Source: Aminobacterium sp. MB27-C1
GTDB taxonomy: Bacteria; Synergistota; Synergistia; Synergistales; Aminobacteriaceae
NCBI RefSeq assembly: GCF_030908405.1
Contig: NZ_CP133089.1
Location: 1,054,001-1,118,000 of the forward strand
Reading direction: 5' to 3'
DNA length: 64,000 nt
Made by a program: the position numbers and the translations under genes. Below the pieces are notes generated by a model. It ran no database searches, had not been told where the DNA came from, and worked only from the letters and a program-made list of their open reading frames with translations. Positions 56,176 to 64,000 of the stretch are shown here, piece after piece. Numbering within the stretch: the first letter of the stretch is position 1; each line of letters starts with the position of its first letter.

Positions 56176-56260
56176 GCGAGAGTGGCGGAACTGGTAGACG
56201 CGCTGGACTTAGGATCCAGTGGATTCCTCCATAGGGGTTCGAGTCCCCTCTCTCGCACCA
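56176..56260 (+). tRNA. tRNA-Leu (anticodon TAG)
   Basis: 85 nt. Acceptor GCGAGAG/CTCTCGC, anticodon stem-loop CTGGA-CTTAGGA-TCCAG, long class-II variable arm, T arm GGGG-TTCGAGT-CCCC, discriminator A, encoded CCA. An integrase remnant starts just 3' of it, marking it as the probable attachment site of the island to the right. Confidence 0.95.
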
Positions 56261-56355
56261 TATCTTTTCTAAAACCTCAAGGTATATAGTTATATTAATA
56301 TTAGGGAGTTAGCTCCAAGATTACGACAATCGTCGATTATTGTTTGTGATTTTAC

Positions 56356-56382
56356 AAATTTGATATTAAATTTGATATTAAA
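56356..56382. repeat. 12-bp tandem repeat, 2.25 copies
   Basis: AAATTTGATATT occurs at 56356-56367 and 56368-56379 and is followed by AAA. It lies between tRNA-Leu and the integrase remnant. Function unknown. Confidence 0.8.
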
Positions 56383-56459
56383 GCAAAAGATTTAAGCAGA
56401 TGTTGCTCAAGCAGCACAACATCTGGGTGTAACTCCAAGAAAGTACCTCACTTAACAAA

Positions 56460-57822
56460 CAGTCTGATTGTTGGTATTAAAGATATTTTGTCCCCGAAAA
56501 ATTCAGACCTATTTTAGATTTGACCGAAATACACAAATGCTTTCATACGAAATCCCCTGAAATTGCAAACTTGAAAGCCCAAGTGCTAGACATTATTCTT
56601 TTTTTGTTTTTCAAAACGCCAGGTGTTGTTAACTGCCCCTCACTCAAGCCTAATCTAATGGAAAAGATTGATATTGATAATGATAATGATAATGTATGTA
56701 AGTATGATGTTGCCCCTTCTCAGGCCACTGATCCAAGTTCCTTCGACGAAATAATCTATCATCTTTTATTCCTCATAATCATTCATACCAGTATTCCTTC
56801 TCAAAACCGGTGTTGGATCAAGCAAGCTTCTAAGTGAGGCTTTAGAAATCTACATTAAAAAAATCAAAATGGGGGGCTGGAAGAACAGAACAGAGAAAAC
56901 TAAAATACCCAGGATTCGCGCAATCTTACATATTTTACCCGACCTTCCATTGAAGGTGCTCCCACTAGATCACTTACGTTTTTATAGACGCGCTTGTATG
57001 AAACTCCCAAGCAACGGGTATAAGAAACAAAACGATTAAAGAAATTCTATTAATGAGTATACCGGAAAATGAACGTAAAGCACCCAAGACTATTCAACAC
57101 AATCTTGAGCTTTTCAGAGGATTCTTACACTGGGCAACTAATCTAGGATATATATTTATGGGATGGACAAGGTTCTTACATTCAAATCAACGAAACGGAC
57201 CATGAACTCCGAGATATTCTGGATGACGAAGATATAGAAAAGATTCTCAGGTTTCTTGCATATACGATTGATGCCGATGTCACCCGTCCCATTTCTGGGT
57301 TCTCCTGATAGTCCTCTTTTCGGCGACAAGACTTGAAGAAATCTCATGTTTAGAGGTGAATGATTGGTGTATTGAAGATGACGATGACATACCATGCTTT
57401 AATATACATCGTAAAGGGGATAGCAAAAACACAAACAGCATATTTACGGAAACAACAATATGCTTTAACATATATAATAAAGGAAATAGATGACTTAAGA
57501 TACGCTGGATCAATAGGCTCGTACCAATTCATCCATTACTTTTCATTGAACTAAATATCATGGCTTGTGTCTCGAGTATTAAAAATAGAGAAAAAGTTTT
57601 ACAATTATTTGCTATACAGTCATATACAAACTACAGTTTCTTAAAGTTGGTAAATCTTTGGTATGTCAGCTTGTCAGACACAAGAACCCGTGGTCAGACT
57701 TGCAGCCGATTTGGAATATGTCGAAACCGTATCATCCAAGAGATATCTATGAAGTGGTTAAGAAGATTTCTTACAATGTGGACTTCTCTCCAATAAAGAA
57801 TTCGCATTTCATCGTCCATTGA
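56460..57822 (+). pseudogene. Degraded phage/island-type tyrosine recombinase (integrase)
   Basis: No intact frame, but consecutive pieces in different frames translate to an integrase in the right order: VPEKFRPILDLTEIHKCFHT (N-terminal region, ~56490); LLSEALEIYIKKIKMGGWKN and RRACMKLPSNGYKKQND (core-binding domain, ~56827-57040); NKTIKEILLMSIPENERKAP then TIQHNLELFRGFLHWATNLG (~57034-57150); LFSATRLEEISCLEVNDW with the first catalytic Arg (~57310-57370); RLVPIHPLLFIEL (~57520-57555); and KPYHPRDIYEVVKKISYNVD (to a stop near 57822). At least four frameshifts or stops separate them, and the catalytic H-x-x-R and Tyr boxes are not recognisable. Position directly 3' of tRNA-Leu fits an inactivated island integrase. 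Confidence 0.8.
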
Positions 57823-58530
57823 GCATGGAGCAAATAGAACTCAAAAAGAGATCCACAAGAAGGATCAGCACAGGATGAAAAGAAAATCTATACTCTTTGT
57901 TTCAAGAACTTCTCTTTAGAGTTTTATCACATATATAGTTCTAATTTGCTCTTTGATATTTATTTAGTCATCTCTAAAATCCTCCGGATATACATGGATA
58001 AAATCAGATTTTTGATAATAAGCCGGAAAACCCATAAAATTATTATGGATTGGGGGTAATTTTGTCAAGACATTCGACATGGATGATCTATAAATTATCC
58101 CGTACTACATGTAGTGAGAGTTTTCGGTTGATCTCTACACTTAATCCGCTGGTATAAATCTTAGATTTCAAAGCTCCTGACAACAATCTTACGACCTGAA
58201 AGAAGCAAAACAAACACGAGGATGTATATGAACGTTCTTTGGCGTTCAAGGGCGTTTTTAGGGTAGTCATCTGAAGATTCTTTAGGAGCTTATATCTATT
58301 TTCTGCTAAAACTATTGTTTGAGAAGCGAGAGAGGAATTCTTTTCACAAAATACCTTAAGGAATAATTGAGTGTCAGAGCTGCTTCATGTTAACGGGGCA
58401 ACTTTGCTTTTTTGTGAAAACTACTTGTTTTAAAACTATTTCTTTGGCCTTTACTTCCGCGAAAAAATAAATCAGAGGTGCCTATAACAGTGACTCTTAT
58501 TTACATCGGGGAAACGGAGGGGGATTAGTT
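57823..58530. other. Unassigned AT-rich stretch between integrase remnant and island genes
   Basis: About 700 bases without a supportable gene. Only short frames occur, the longest a 60-codon frame on the minus strand (58088-58270) resembling no family I can name. The right end should contain the promoter for the 58531 gene; no convincing -35/-10 pair could be picked. May hold further decayed mobile DNA. Confidence 0.5.
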
Positions 58531-61500
58531 TTGTTCTTCATAGGTTTCTTATCATTTGTGATAGCCGGTGGTATTGCAACGGCAGTAATCATTCATAAGG
58601 TCAACAGCAATTCTAACGCAATTTCAGAAATCACTTTTCAAACAGAGAAAAGAATCTATCATGCTATTTCAAAGATTGAAAAAGATCTTAGAGATAATAT
58701 TCAGTCTATCCATGAAGGAAAAGTACAGCTCATACAATCCTTAGAAAAAAGCAGAAACGACAATTACCAAAAACTTGCTGAAGAATTTGTTGATAAATGG
58801 GATGAATCGCGCCTTCAGTTTATCCAGGATAACAAAAATTTAGTTCGAAAGTCGTTAGAGGGAATATCGACACTAGAAGGACAGATAAAGGAACTGGAGA
58901 CATCTATATCAAATGATGTTGATAATCTAAGTGAAGAAGCTCAAAAAATGTTGGCAGAGCAACAAGAATTCAAAGAATTACTCAAAGGATATCCTCCCCA
59001 ACTATTGAATTCCATTTCCACCATTGGTGACTACATCAAGGCACAAAAACAACAGCTGGGGAATATTATCGCCGAAAAACTTGAAACAATAACTGAAAGA
59101 TTAGAAGCAATAAAGCGAATCTCTCAATCTGACAAACAAGAGATCACAGAATTATTAAGGTCTAGTGTAGACCCAGTAATTGACTGTCTTAAACGAATAA
59201 CCAGAGATACAACACAGTCCAGAGAAGATCACGAAAGTTTTGCAGCTCTGATCAACAAGGATTACAATACCCTCCTGAATTTCAGTGAATACTCTCAGGA
59301 AAAGACATTGGCCATAAAAAAATTATTCCAGGAACTTCAAGACAATTCATTAAAGACAACCGAACTTAATAAGTATCTTGAAAATGGAAAGGAAGGCATT
59401 CAGCGTATCATTGAAACCTCTCTAAGTACAATACAGAAAGATATTTATGCTTCGGTTTGCGGGATAAAACATATAGAAGACAAAATATCCGAACTAGAGA
59501 AAAATCTTCAAAGTATTTCATCTATCATGGCCAACACTTCGACTCCAGAAATACTGGTGGAGCCACGACCCGGAACAGAGAATCCATCTAAGGAAAAGGA
59601 ACCCGAACCGGAAAGCAGGAAAGCCGACACAGTTAAAGAAGGAATAGATCCTATTCCTTCTACAGGATTTTCCGGATCTCAACAACCCTTTCTTCTTGAA
59701 AAACCTGTTCCAATTCAGGGACCTTCAACACCTAGCGAAGAACAGCCCCTCCATATCCCTTCATATGGAAGGGACCCTTTGCCGAATATTGGGGAAATAA
59801 TTAACGGAGAAAAAGTCAAACCAGATCCCCGGAAAAGAGGGGGAAGGCGTCCCGGATCGAAGGGAACACCCAATAACGAAGAAGCCAAAAGAGTATTTCC
59901 TGAAATGTACTGTATTAAAAGGGCTGGCCGTTGGGAAGTGATTCTAAAACTCCCGAAGCAAATTCTTAAACTAACTCAGAGGAATCTAGCTGATATCACT
60001 ATTAACAAGGAACCTGTCAGATTTGATCCCCGAAGGGGTGAATGTCTCATAAATAAACTGGAAACTGAATGCGCCGTGACTTCTGACGTATATCATTCGT
60101 CTCATAAACAGTTCGGAAACGGAGAATATCTTCTGTTCAAGCTGCGCAAGAAAGGGGCTGGAGATGCAAGATTTGTAGAGAAATATTCAGATGGAGTATA
60201 TCTCTGTATTGTACCTGAGGACTTTTCAGTTGACAGAAGCAGGAGCTGTGTGGAACACATTACCCCTGAAAAAGTTTCTATTCCAGGACATCTTGTGCAT
60301 TTTTTTAATCCTTCTCCTGAAAAAGGTATCTTTTTTCACAAACCAGATGGCAAAATTCTGGAAATCCCAACTTACTTCCAGAAATTTTCTCTTGAGGGGA
60401 ACAAGTTAGCCTTTGTTACTGAAGAAGACTTCTTCATTAATGAATTGCCGGCAATAGTATCTAATGTACCCAGATACTGGAACCAAGTGGACCAAATAGT
60501 ACTGAGGCATGAAATAGCGGGAGAATACCGACCGAAAGAAGTTATTATCCCTGCTGACGAAGGGGAAAGAAAACGAATAATACTGCCAAAAAGCATGAAA
60601 ACAAGAGGCGGGCATTTTTCAGTCCTGCTTTACAACAAATGTACCGATTTAATAGAAAGTCATCCTTTTTATTTTCATCGTGATATTGCATCGATCGAAA
60701 CTTCGGGATATGCCCCTTACGCAGAAAAGACTCCTTCTGAAATTTATATGAAAATATCTCATACACCGGGCATGGTCTTTACCCCCTTAGATAAAGTGAC
60801 TTCTCAGAATGTGGAATATGAAACAAAACAGGGAGAAACATCCATAGTTTTTCCGCAATGCCCGGAAATACAAACCTTTCAGTGGAAAATTGAACAGGAA
60901 GATTCAGACACTGTTTCTTTTTCCTTCGATTTTCCCGGATTTTACTGGTCTATAGGAAATTGCCAGAATCCAGGTCGATTGACCAAAGAACAGATTGAAT
61001 TAAGTTTTAAAGATCTCAAGGCCACTGCCGGAAAGATGCTCTATGTTCAAGCCCCTGGAGATGCGGATAAATTCCGTGCGATTCTCCAATATTCCAATTC
61101 AATTCGAAGAAAGATGAATTTTAATTCAGAGACCGGATTTTGGGAAATAAATATTTCTGTACTGGGGCAAAAGATAGTAGCAGAAAAAAAAGAATATGCT
61201 AATCGACGAATTCCGTTAGTAATTTCTTTTTATAAGCAAGATGGTTTCCATCAAAAACATATTGGGAACTTTATAGAGAAACGAATTTGCAAGTACTGTG
61301 GAGAGAAGATCCCTGCGGATCAGCTCAAACAACATTTTAAAGAAAATCACATAAAGGAAATCTTCAATGAAAACTTCCGGGAAACAAGCTATGAAGAATT
61401 AAAGGCTATTGATAAGTCTTTGCCTGAAGCTATTTACAAATGTCCCTATTGTCCGTTTTATTCTAAAAAAGATGGATATGAAAATCCTAACGATGTCATA

Positions 61501-61713
61501 TGTAAACATATCCAAGAAAAACATCATGGCGAAGTTATTTCATTTACCCCTGTTAGCGACGTAACAGAAATCCGGGAAAACGTACTCACTCATTTATGTG
61601 AAACATGGCGATGCAAAATATGCGCCAAGGATTTTACAGATCAGGAAGAAATGTTAAGACACTTATTCAAGAAACACCTGAATTCTCTTCTTGATGATAC
61701 TAAGGAGGTATAG
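58531..61713 (+). CDS. Large membrane-anchored coiled-coil protein with three C-terminal C2H2-type zinc fingers; putative defence component
   Basis: 1060 residues, no family firmly recognised. In order: one N-terminal membrane helix (FFIGFLSFVIAGGIATAVII), coiled coil to ~330, Pro/Glu-rich linker (~335-425), basic patch (RKRGGRRPGSKGTP), a long beta-rich region (~455-910) and three zinc fingers: CKYCGEKIPADQLKQHFKENH (Cx2C-x11-Hx4H, ~920), CPYC...CKHIQEKH (~970) and CKICAKDF...RHLFKKH (Cx2C-x12-Hx4H, 1028-1049). TTG start with GGAGGGGG 8 bases upstream. It precedes a helicase gene by 2 bases. Size and partner recall DruH of type III Druantia, which needs profile confirmation. Confidence 0.75.
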   Translation: MFFIGFLSFVIAGGIATAVIIHKVNSNSNAISEITFQTEKRIYHAISKIEKDLRDNIQSIHEGKVQLIQSLEKSRNDNYQKLAEEFVDKWDESRLQFIQDNKNLVRKSLEGISTLEGQIKELETSISNDVDNLSEEAQKMLAEQQEFKELLKGYPPQLLNSISTIGDYIKAQKQQLGNIIAEKLETITERLEAIKRISQSDKQEITELLRSSVDPVIDCLKRITRDTTQSREDHESFAALINKDYNTLLNFSEYSQEKTLAIKKLFQELQDNSLKTTELNKYLENGKEGIQRIIETSLSTIQKDIYASVCGIKHIEDKISELEKNLQSISSIMANTSTPEILVEPRPGTENPSKEKEPEPESRKADTVKEGIDPIPSTGFSGSQQPFLLEKPVPIQGPSTPSEEQPLHIPSYGRDPLPNIGEIINGEKVKPDPRKRGGRRPGSKGTPNNEEAKRVFPEMYCIKRAGRWEVILKLPKQILKLTQRNLADITINKEPVRFDPRRGECLINKLETECAVTSDVYHSSHKQFGNGEYLLFKLRKKGAGDARFVEKYSDGVYLCIVPEDFSVDRSRSCVEHITPEKVSIPGHLVHFFNPSPEKGIFFHKPDGKILEIPTYFQKFSLEGNKLAFVTEEDFFINELPAIVSNVPRYWNQVDQIVLRHEIAGEYRPKEVIIPADEGERKRIILPKSMKTRGGHFSVLLYNKCTDLIESHPFYFHRDIASIETSGYAPYAEKTPSEIYMKISHTPGMVFTPLDKVTSQNVEYETKQGETSIVFPQCPEIQTFQWKIEQEDSDTVSFSFDFPGFYWSIGNCQNPGRLTKEQIELSFKDLKATAGKMLYVQAPGDADKFRAILQYSNSIRRKMNFNSETGFWEINISVLGQKIVAEKKEYANRRIPLVISFYKQDGFHQKHIGNFIEKRICKYCGEKIPADQLKQHFKENHIKEIFNENFRETSYEELKAIDKSLPEAIYKCPYCPFYSKKDGYENPNDVICKHIQEKHHGEVISFTPVSDVTEIRENVLTHLCETWRCKICAKDFTDQEEMLRHLFKKHLNSLLDDTKEV

Positions 61714-61715
61714 GT

Positions 61716-64000
61716 TTGAATCCTCTTGAACTTTGTAGAACAGTGGAAGAAAGATACCGCAGCTACCTAATGACAACATATCGGTTCAAGGATCCGGAAT
61801 TTAATTCTTCTTTTGGAACAGCCCTTGCCAGAAGTAACCTTGCTAAAGGGCCTTACCTTGAAGCTTCCCCGCCCTTTATGAAGGGGGGAAAACCAAAGGA
61901 CCTTTTTCTGGAATTGCTGGGCCATCCTGTAGATAAAGGATTTCTTGATGCAGTAAAAGGAAACAGAAATCTGTATTTACACCAGGAACGCTCAGTAAAA
62001 GCGGTTCATTCGAATCAGAACGTTATTGTATCAACGGGAACCGGGAGCGGGAAGACAGAATCTTTTCTGCTGCCGATTCTGCTTCACCTCTATCAGGAAT
62101 ATGAAATGGGAACTCTGGCTCCTGGAGTCAGGGCCCTTATCCTTTATCCAATGAATGCCCTCGCAAATGATCAGAGAGATCGTCTTGGGGAGATATCAGA
62201 AATTATTTATCAAAGTGATTCCTCCTTTAGATTCACCTTTGGACAATACATTGGGGAAACCCCCCAAAACATAAAAGATCATCACAGAGGTGGCGAGACA
62301 AGGGCAAGAGAACGCCGACCTGGAGAACTTGTTTTTCGCGAGGAAATGAGACAAACTCCTCCACACATACTTCTTACCAATTTTTCAATGCTTGAATACC
62401 TGCTTCTTCGCCCGGATGATCATCCATTGTTCTCAGGAGAATCAGCGAGGAAGTGGAAATTTATCGTCTTAGATGAAGTTCATCAATATCGTGGATCTAT
62501 CGGCATCGAGATGTCAATGCTTCTCAGACGTCTTAAACAGAGGCTTTTTGAAGAAGGGAAAACGAGTTCCTTTACGTGTATCGGTACCAGTGCAACCCTA
62601 GCGGACGGTGAAAAGGGATTTCCTGCCGTTGCTGAATTTGCTTCAACCCTCTATGGTGAACCATTCTTGAAAGAAAACATAATTGAGGGCGCAACTCAGA
62701 AAATACAAGATAAATCTACATATACTTTGACGGCTGAAGATTATCTTAAAATTGCTTCTAAGATTTATGAAGAGGACCAACTTCAGAAAACTCTTGATGA
62801 TACAGTTGGCAAGTACAATATTGTTCCCTTGGATGAAGGTAAACCGCTGGAAATACAGTTAGGCCATCTGTTACTGCACGATAACAGGAGTTTTAGAATA
62901 AGGACTTTGGTCGAAGGAAATCCTACAGATGTCCAGGAACTTGCTGATGTTGTGTTTGATGACATTCCCGTAGATGAGAGAAACAAAGCCCTCTATGCTC
63001 TTATTGAATGCCTTTCCTGGGCAAAAGATCCCCAGAATGAGGAACCCTTTGGTTCTCCCCGGTACCATTTTTTCTTGAGAGCGCTTGAGGGCGCTTTTAT
63101 CAGTTATCTGCCGGAGAAAAAAGTTTCAATTGACAGGTCTTTCGGATCCTCGGAGGGTATGATGTTTGAAACTGCTGTGTGCAGAGAATGTGGTCAGGCT
63201 TATTTTGTAGGCAGACTTATTTCTGATGGATCTATGCAGTATTTTAAAGAAGCAGTAAAAGATCCTGGCGATAGCAAGTACCAAATCGACTACTTAAGAC
63301 CCCTCGAAAAGGATTTTGAAGAAGAAATGGAAGAGAACCACCCGAATGAAGATTTGGATATTGGATATCTATGCCCTGTCTGCGGCGCTTATGGAGAGTT
63401 TACTCCTCCCGACTGTGGCCACAAAGAAAATATTATGCTACGAGTAATTCTTGAAGCGTCTTCTGATGATCCAAGATCTCAAGACAGGCCCTTTAAGTGT
63501 CAGGCATGCGGAGCTTCCTCTCCCAATACGCCTATAAGGAACGTGGTCTCCGGAAGCGATGCCCCACATTCTGTAATTGCAACAACACTCCATGAATGTT
63601 TGCCGGAAGATAGAAGAAAACTATTAGCCTTTGCTGATGGTAGGCAAGAAGCCGCATTCTTCGCATGGTACCTGGAGAATACTTATGATGGGTTTTTCCA
63701 GAGACATCTTATCCATGTTGCCTTGAAAAAACTTAGCGATATTGACACCGAAGAAATATCGGTGGAAGACCTGGTATCTCAACTGATGAAAGTGTCTTCG
63801 GGCTATAAACTCTTTGGTAAGAATGTAACAATAACCAAGAAGAAAGAACAGTGCTGGACTTGGATTCTGAAAGAATTCTTCGAGACAAGCAGGAGGGTTT
63901 CCCTTGAAGGAGTTGGCTTGCTTCAGTGGAATTTAAAACTTCCCGAAGATTTTCCTGTTCCGACAGAGCTGCTTGAGTTACCCTTTGAATTTACACACGA
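61716..64000 (+). CDS. DEVH-box helicase of the YprA/DUF1998-like type (DruE-like), 3'-truncated by the window edge
   Basis: Open for 761 codons to the window end. TTG start with AAGGAGG 7 bases upstream, two bases after the previous stop. Motif I STGTGSGKTESFLLPIL (~106), Ia LYPMNALANDQRDRL, motif II LDEVHQYRG (~253) and III GTSATLA. Before the second RecA domain come Cys pairs CRECGQAY (~488), CPVCGAYGE (~552) and CQACGASSP (~595), then AFADGRQEAAFFAWYLE (~640), all typical of large YprA/DUF1998-class helicases found in defence systems (Druantia DruE, DISARM DrmA) and in MrfA. Remaining helicase motifs and any DUF1998 domain lie outside. The pairing with the 58531 gene argues for a joint function on DNA. 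Confidence 0.85.
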   Translation, partial: MNPLELCRTVEERYRSYLMTTYRFKDPEFNSSFGTALARSNLAKGPYLEASPPFMKGGKPKDLFLELLGHPVDKGFLDAVKGNRNLYLHQERSVKAVHSNQNVIVSTGTGSGKTESFLLPILLHLYQEYEMGTLAPGVRALILYPMNALANDQRDRLGEISEIIYQSDSSFRFTFGQYIGETPQNIKDHHRGGETRARERRPGELVFREEMRQTPPHILLTNFSMLEYLLLRPDDHPLFSGESARKWKFIVLDEVHQYRGSIGIEMSMLLRRLKQRLFEEGKTSSFTCIGTSATLADGEKGFPAVAEFASTLYGEPFLKENIIEGATQKIQDKSTYTLTAEDYLKIASKIYEEDQLQKTLDDTVGKYNIVPLDEGKPLEIQLGHLLLHDNRSFRIRTLVEGNPTDVQELADVVFDDIPVDERNKALYALIECLSWAKDPQNEEPFGSPRYHFFLRALEGAFISYLPEKKVSIDRSFGSSEGMMFETAVCRECGQAYFVGRLISDGSMQYFKEAVKDPGDSKYQIDYLRPLEKDFEEEMEENHPNEDLDIGYLCPVCGAYGEFTPPDCGHKENIMLRVILEASSDDPRSQDRPFKCQACGASSPNTPIRNVVSGSDAPHSVIATTLHECLPEDRRKLLAFADGRQEAAFFAWYLENTYDGFFQRHLIHVALKKLSDIDTEEISVEDLVSQLMKVSSGYKLFGKNVTITKKKEQCWTWILKEFFETSRRVSLEGVGLLQWNLKLPEDFPVPTELLELPFEFTH

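Follow-up and report, generated by a model that had tools for sequence, protein, structure and literature searches.

The window, a stretch of 64,000 nucleotides from Aminobacterium sp. MB27-C1 (NZ_CP133089.1, positions 1,054,001 to 1,118,000), carries a gene for a protein with three C2H2-like zinc fingers, directly followed by a gene for a DruE-type helicase of the YprA family. We consider it fairly probable that the pair is a two-gene Druantia-like phage-defence cassette, in which the finger protein stands in DruH's place as sensor and loader. The defence role is supported because the genes lie in an island or beside CRISPR genes, are patchily distributed and include a helicase of this family. 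The finger protein may act as the sensor, since an Ig-like, divergent partner precedes the helicase, as DruH does in Druantia III. Throughout, we infer that the pair has a defence function and that the finger protein senses, binds zinc, docks and loads the helicase. The sequence-only reading that drew attention to the fingers did not include the beta-rich core of the protein, the downstream helicase or the tRNA-Leu island that holds both genes.

The finger protein has 1060 amino acids and is encoded on the forward strand (58531..61713) from a TTG start, with a GGAGGGG ribosome-binding site at 58517-58523, 7 nt before the start; the gene is supported by the open reading frame list, the sequence and relatives in other phyla. 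Residues 3-21 (58537..58593) form the lone hydrophobic segment, with a maximal Kyte-Doolittle 19-residue mean of 2.41, and fit a membrane helix; nothing comparable is present in the relatives. Residues ~30-338 (58618..59544) contain three prolines only and have a hydrophobic period of 3.5-3.6, evidence for, though not proof of, a long helical or coiled-coil stretch. The membrane helix and the ~300-residue coiled coil claimed earlier are thus borne out as a hydrophobic segment and a helical stretch, the coiled coil itself being unproven. This stretch is not conserved as such among the relatives. It gives weak matches to the coiled-coil parts of the ZorA and JetC models and to tape-measure proteins, and these library matches are low-complexity coiled-coil similarity.

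A linker rich in proline and charged residues (residues 340-455, 59548..59895) leads into a beta-rich core of ~440 residues (residues ~455-894, 59893..61212), which is common to all relatives. The fingers do cap the C-terminus, as had been claimed; it is this core that separates them from the coiled coil. The AlphaFold2 model of the core is of moderate confidence (pLDDT 62) and resembles tandem Ig-like domains in Foldseek and VIA-align comparisons (best Z 7.6), a likeness for which the tool warns of a common arrangement. The fold search is dominated by antibody Ig domains at Z 7-7.6, which may reflect the common arrangement alone.

The three finger motifs have exactly the spacings x11, x18 and x12 that were read from the translation before. 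Finger 1 (residues 920-940, 61288..61350) has the ligands C920-x2-C923-x11-H935-x4-H940, finger 2 (residues 971-998, 61441..61524) has C971-x2-C974-x18-H993-x4-H998 and finger 3 (residues 1028-1049, 61612..61677), which also has the classical hydrophobic pattern, has C1028-x2-C1031-x12-H1044-x4-H1049. Among all window open reading frames of at least 60 amino acids on both strands, this one alone matches CxxC-x11-18-H-x3-5-H. Shuffling the whole protein 20,000 times, and its C-terminal 170 residues another 20,000 times, never yielded three such motifs.

Conservation of the cysteines and histidines was compared across homologues at about 26% overall identity. In an alignment of the five finger-bearing sequences 23 of the 151 gap-free columns are invariant, and these include 11 of the 12 ligand columns (hypergeometric P about 1e-9). 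None of the other six cysteines and histidines in the finger region of the window protein is conserved. The exception among the ligands is the last one of finger 2, a histidine in the window protein, which is a cysteine in G285, G355 and G983 (H-x4-C) and a shifted histidine in G399. A sixth family member, from G363, retains both core and helicase and has lost the finger region. The fingers are therefore usual in the family and not indispensable.

The finger region (residues 895-1060) was modelled with AlphaFold2 from the alignment of the five sequences. The model has a mean pLDDT of 82.9 and forms a beta-beta-alpha unit at each finger (pLDDT ~75-93), so the secondary structure expected of the three sites is predicted at every one of them; the Foldseek matches are weak (E 0.05-1), the best being C2H2 arrays such as those of CTCF and Kaiso. 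The fingers lie below the curated cut-offs in a Pfam search, and a sequence search of solved structures gave weak finger matches and nothing else. The absence of fingers from the G363 protein and the unreached Pfam cut-offs are what might be expected if the CxxC and HxH sites were relics or chance patterns that bind no zinc. We regard this as extremely improbable: the ligands are kept at 26% identity, three of three sites adopt the beta-beta-alpha fold in the model and the shuffled sequences never reach three motifs. From the alignment and the model, the three are real zinc fingers, which would be expected to bind zinc.

The fingers do not have the appearance of a classical tandem C2H2 array for reading DNA, as the sequence-only reading might suggest. 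They share the beta-beta-alpha units and the CxxC...H...H ligands of eukaryotic arrays such as CTCF and Kaiso, their best fold matches. They differ from these in having long structured spacers (30 and 29 residues) with conserved motifs of their own (SLPxxIYKC and DEIRENV) in place of TGEKP-type linkers, one elongated finger and weak fold scores, and at pI 6.4-8.6 the region is close to neutral. Among bacterial proteins, Ros/MucR proteins also use C2H2 coordination. They are small transcription regulators with a single finger of 9-residue spacer (C-x2-C-x9-H) inside a larger globular domain (PMC9779718), in contrast to the three fingers and x11, x18 and x12 spacings found here.

The fingers may bind DNA or RNA. 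A plausible alternative, which we hold at somewhat less than even confidence, is that they serve as docking sites for protein, either the DruE-type helicase or further copies of themselves, and do not contact nucleic acid. The missing TGEKP linkers, the structured spacers and the near-neutral charge would fit such a function, as would the pairing of the partners always with the same helicase clade in spite of their differing N termini. Against it, the best Foldseek matches, weak as they are, are to DNA-binding arrays, and the G363 protein, which has no fingers, is paired with that helicase clade all the same.

The helicase gene (61716..64000, forward strand) runs past the end of the window to L002:12420 (G000:C1:1120419) and encodes 1567 amino acids, recognised by PADLOC and Pfam. 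Its start lies 2 nt downstream of the stop codon of the finger protein gene and its ribosome-binding site (AAGGAGG, 61702..61708) lies inside the 3' end of that gene, so the arrangement makes translational coupling of the two likely. The best PADLOC model is DruE1 (E 4e-172), the Pfam domains DEAD, Helicase_C and MZB (DUF1998) are all above their cut-offs, and the Walker A, DEVH, SAT and QRVGRAGR motifs are intact. The product is classed on these matches as a DruE/YprA-family helicase. The MZB domain ends at residue 1536 of 1567; the 31 residues that remain include no C-terminal nuclease. The type III DruE of Escherichia coli has 413 residues beyond MZB, which are reported to hold PLD domains (PMC12458937, PMC13192584).

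Of 188 genomes in the phylum of the window genome, 1 carries the cassette; apart from it, the finger protein gave coiled-coil similarity only. A wider genome sample yielded relatives in G355, G285, G363, G399 and G983; G454 has a fragment comprising part of the core, with no helicase adjoining. The window genome, G355, G285 together with G399, G363 and G983 represent five different phyla. Matches in G100 and G148 were rejected as coiled-coil similarity only, and one in G313 (E 0.004) was not upheld, with 0 of 149 genomes of that phylum having a relative. The viral contigs, plasmids and phages that were searched contain no relative of the finger protein, and a helicase scan of the genome contigs gave a single weak, unrelated match (L006).

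The partner is followed directly by the helicase in all five relatives with readable flanks. These helicases have 1556-1576 amino acids, and the copy in G285 is frameshifted and was left out of the helicase tree. The four readable ones are 42-48% identical to the window helicase and form one clade with it (support 100/100), apart from the Druantia type III sequences (that of E. coli among them), which group in a clade of their own, and from the cyanobacterial plasmid and ARMADA-like sequences. The nearest sequence outside the clade comes from the phylum of the window genome (G043; support 100/97, on a long branch). The partners diverge faster than the helicases, with identities of about 26% versus 47%.

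The constant unit of the partner family is the Ig-like core, usually with the fingers, and the N terminus varies. G285 and G399 have a soluble coiled coil, G363 has a low-complexity stretch and G983 has a DUF1156 DNA methyltransferase, a family labelled as anti-phage-associated by NCBI. Docking at the membrane, which had been offered as the general role, does not extend to the relatives: among those compared, a hydrophobic N-terminal helix is found in the window protein only, and membrane location therefore cannot, on this comparison, be the conserved function.

The methyltransferase raises the unlikely alternative of a restriction-like system, in which the finger protein would tell self from non-self DNA by DUF1156 methylation encoded elsewhere or fused to it. 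The fusion in G983 and the gene order DUF1156-DUF499-DruH-DruE on a Rhodobacter plasmid are consistent with this; on the other side, a single fusion has been seen and no methyltransferase gene was recognised beside the cassette in the window island or in the other relatives read. The fusion arrangement itself is seen at L056:3-4358, where a DUF1156-type DNA methyltransferase is joined to the Ig-like core and three fingers and is followed by a DruE-type helicase. The plasmid genes (L031:1-12802, NZ_CP023549.1) include a DruH-like protein of the STY4851/ECs_5259 kind between DUF499 and DruE, and their order makes a link between DUF1156 methyltransferases and Druantia III possible.

The cassette lies between a tRNA-Leu gene (56176..56260, forward strand, found with ARAGORN) and a repeat of that gene's 3' end. 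A 29-bp direct repeat at 56233..56261 has a perfect second copy at L002:15973-16001, 13,739 bp away. A tRNA flanked by a direct repeat of its own 3' end is the usual sign of an integrated element. The two repeats are probably attL and attR, and the 13.7-kb stretch from the tRNA to the second repeat reads as an integrated island that holds the cassette. The 2.3 kb between the tRNA and the cassette (56262-58530) contains no convincing gene. Short fragments there that by eye resemble a broken tyrosine recombinase were not accepted as an integrase, as Pfam, PHROGs and tblastn gave them no support.

Downstream of the helicase and beyond the window, L002:13513-15867 holds RNase_H_2 (YprB/MrfB-like), YprA/MrfA-like DEAD and MZB fragments, which appear to be a decayed MrfAB pair within the island. 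YprA/MrfA-type helicases also serve in repair, and these adjoining remnants could be taken to suggest that the cassette is a DNA-repair or maintenance pair and has no part in defence. We judge this quite improbable, since the helicase of the cassette resembles DruE models most closely and not the repair type, and the island setting and the distribution in 1 of 188 genomes of the phylum fit defence better. In G399 the cassette is adjoined by a WYL regulator and by type III-D CRISPR genes; the latter (Csx7-like, TIGR03986 RAMPs and Csx19, L042:897-5715) are directly upstream.

Druantia type III resembles the cassette in several respects. Both have two genes in the same order, with a large partner (~1000 amino acids) ahead of a DruE-type helicase, a setting in mobile islands and a partner that is more divergent than the helicase; for DruH and DruE this has been reported (PMC13192584). 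DruH has been proposed to be a phage sensor through three Ig-like domains (PMC13192584), and Ig-like domains are likewise predicted in the finger protein, at the moderate pLDDT and Z scores given above. Unlike DruH, the finger protein bears C2H2-like fingers and has no detectable DruH sequence relation, and the helicase, unlike type III DruE, has no C-terminal PLD domains and falls in a clade separate from the type III sequences. At E<1 the finger protein has no match among the DruH (YjiT family) models, the E. coli control matching DruH3 at E=0, and hhalign of the finger protein against a DruH alignment gave a probability of 0.1%, that is, no relation. Because no Druantia partner model in PADLOC matches and the DruH profile comparison is negative, the parallel with DruH extends to position and predicted fold and no further. 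By its defining partner the cassette is not Druantia III as far as these searches go. We call it, by analogy, a variant that may work like Druantia III.

Other Druantia types are no closer in their partners. The best single DruE profile is DruE1 and some of types I, II and IV have coiled-coil partners, which is similar to what is seen here. The models of their partners (DruA-D, DruM/F/G, DruF/DruL) have no match in the finger protein at E<1 and none in the relatives at E<0.1, no further cassette gene is seen beyond the finger protein and the helicase, and the helicase does not have the C-terminal inactive Vsr domain that PMC12458937 reports for types I and II. The Druantia III-like or 'III-B' branch of Bell et al. 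(PMC12458937) has a DruE-like helicase that in most cases carries no nuclease domain, as here; the description consulted mentions no finger-bearing partner. Actinobacterial plasmid helicases were rejected as representatives of this branch, their gene order being ARMADA-like. A current defence-finding library, PADLOC-DB 2.0.0, misses the finger-protein partner, and no paper in the collection searched names Druantia together with C2H2.

Under the Druantia-like reading a phage product or a replication structure is probably what the Ig-like core recognises, and the three C2H2-like fingers would let the protein dock to either DNA or the helicase. The finger protein would then load or switch on the DruE-type helicase, which would act on phage DNA. 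In the window genome the membrane helix and the long coiled coil would tether the sensor at the membrane; in other lineages a DNA methyltransferase or a cytoplasmic coiled coil would take the place of this tether. The cassette shows no evident nuclease, and the finishing step could be unwinding by itself, the work of a nuclease of the host or some activity that has escaped recognition.

With just under even confidence we propose that such cassettes form a distinct YprA/DruE-based phage-defence class, not yet described and present in at least five bacterial phyla. Its recognition subunit would unite a sensor core of Ig-like domains with three eukaryote-like C2H2 fingers and an N terminus that can be exchanged (membrane tether, coiled coil or DNA methyltransferase). 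Several different partners of DruE helicases are known, and how each discriminates phage from host DNA is an open question of the field. A fixed module of Ig-like core and fingers with swappable N termini would show which part contacts the helicase and which part serves location or self-marking. If the proposal is true, several C2H2-like fingers would occur in one bacterial protein, which is unusual, and would do so in immunity rather than in regulation.

Large DruE partners of another family are present in the phylum of the window genome (L053:784-3810 and L054:2547-7163, the latter on the reverse strand). Like the finger protein they lie just before a DruE-type helicase, which is sister to the window clade (100/97); unlike it they have no fingers and no profile similarity to it. 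The two are 36% identical to one another; neither Pfam nor PADLOC matches them, and a relation to DruH could not be detected. The partners in G399 and G285 begin with a segment of ~85 residues ahead of the coiled coil (L042:5747-6000), which has no library match and, by eye, faintly recalls a RelE/ParE-like pattern.
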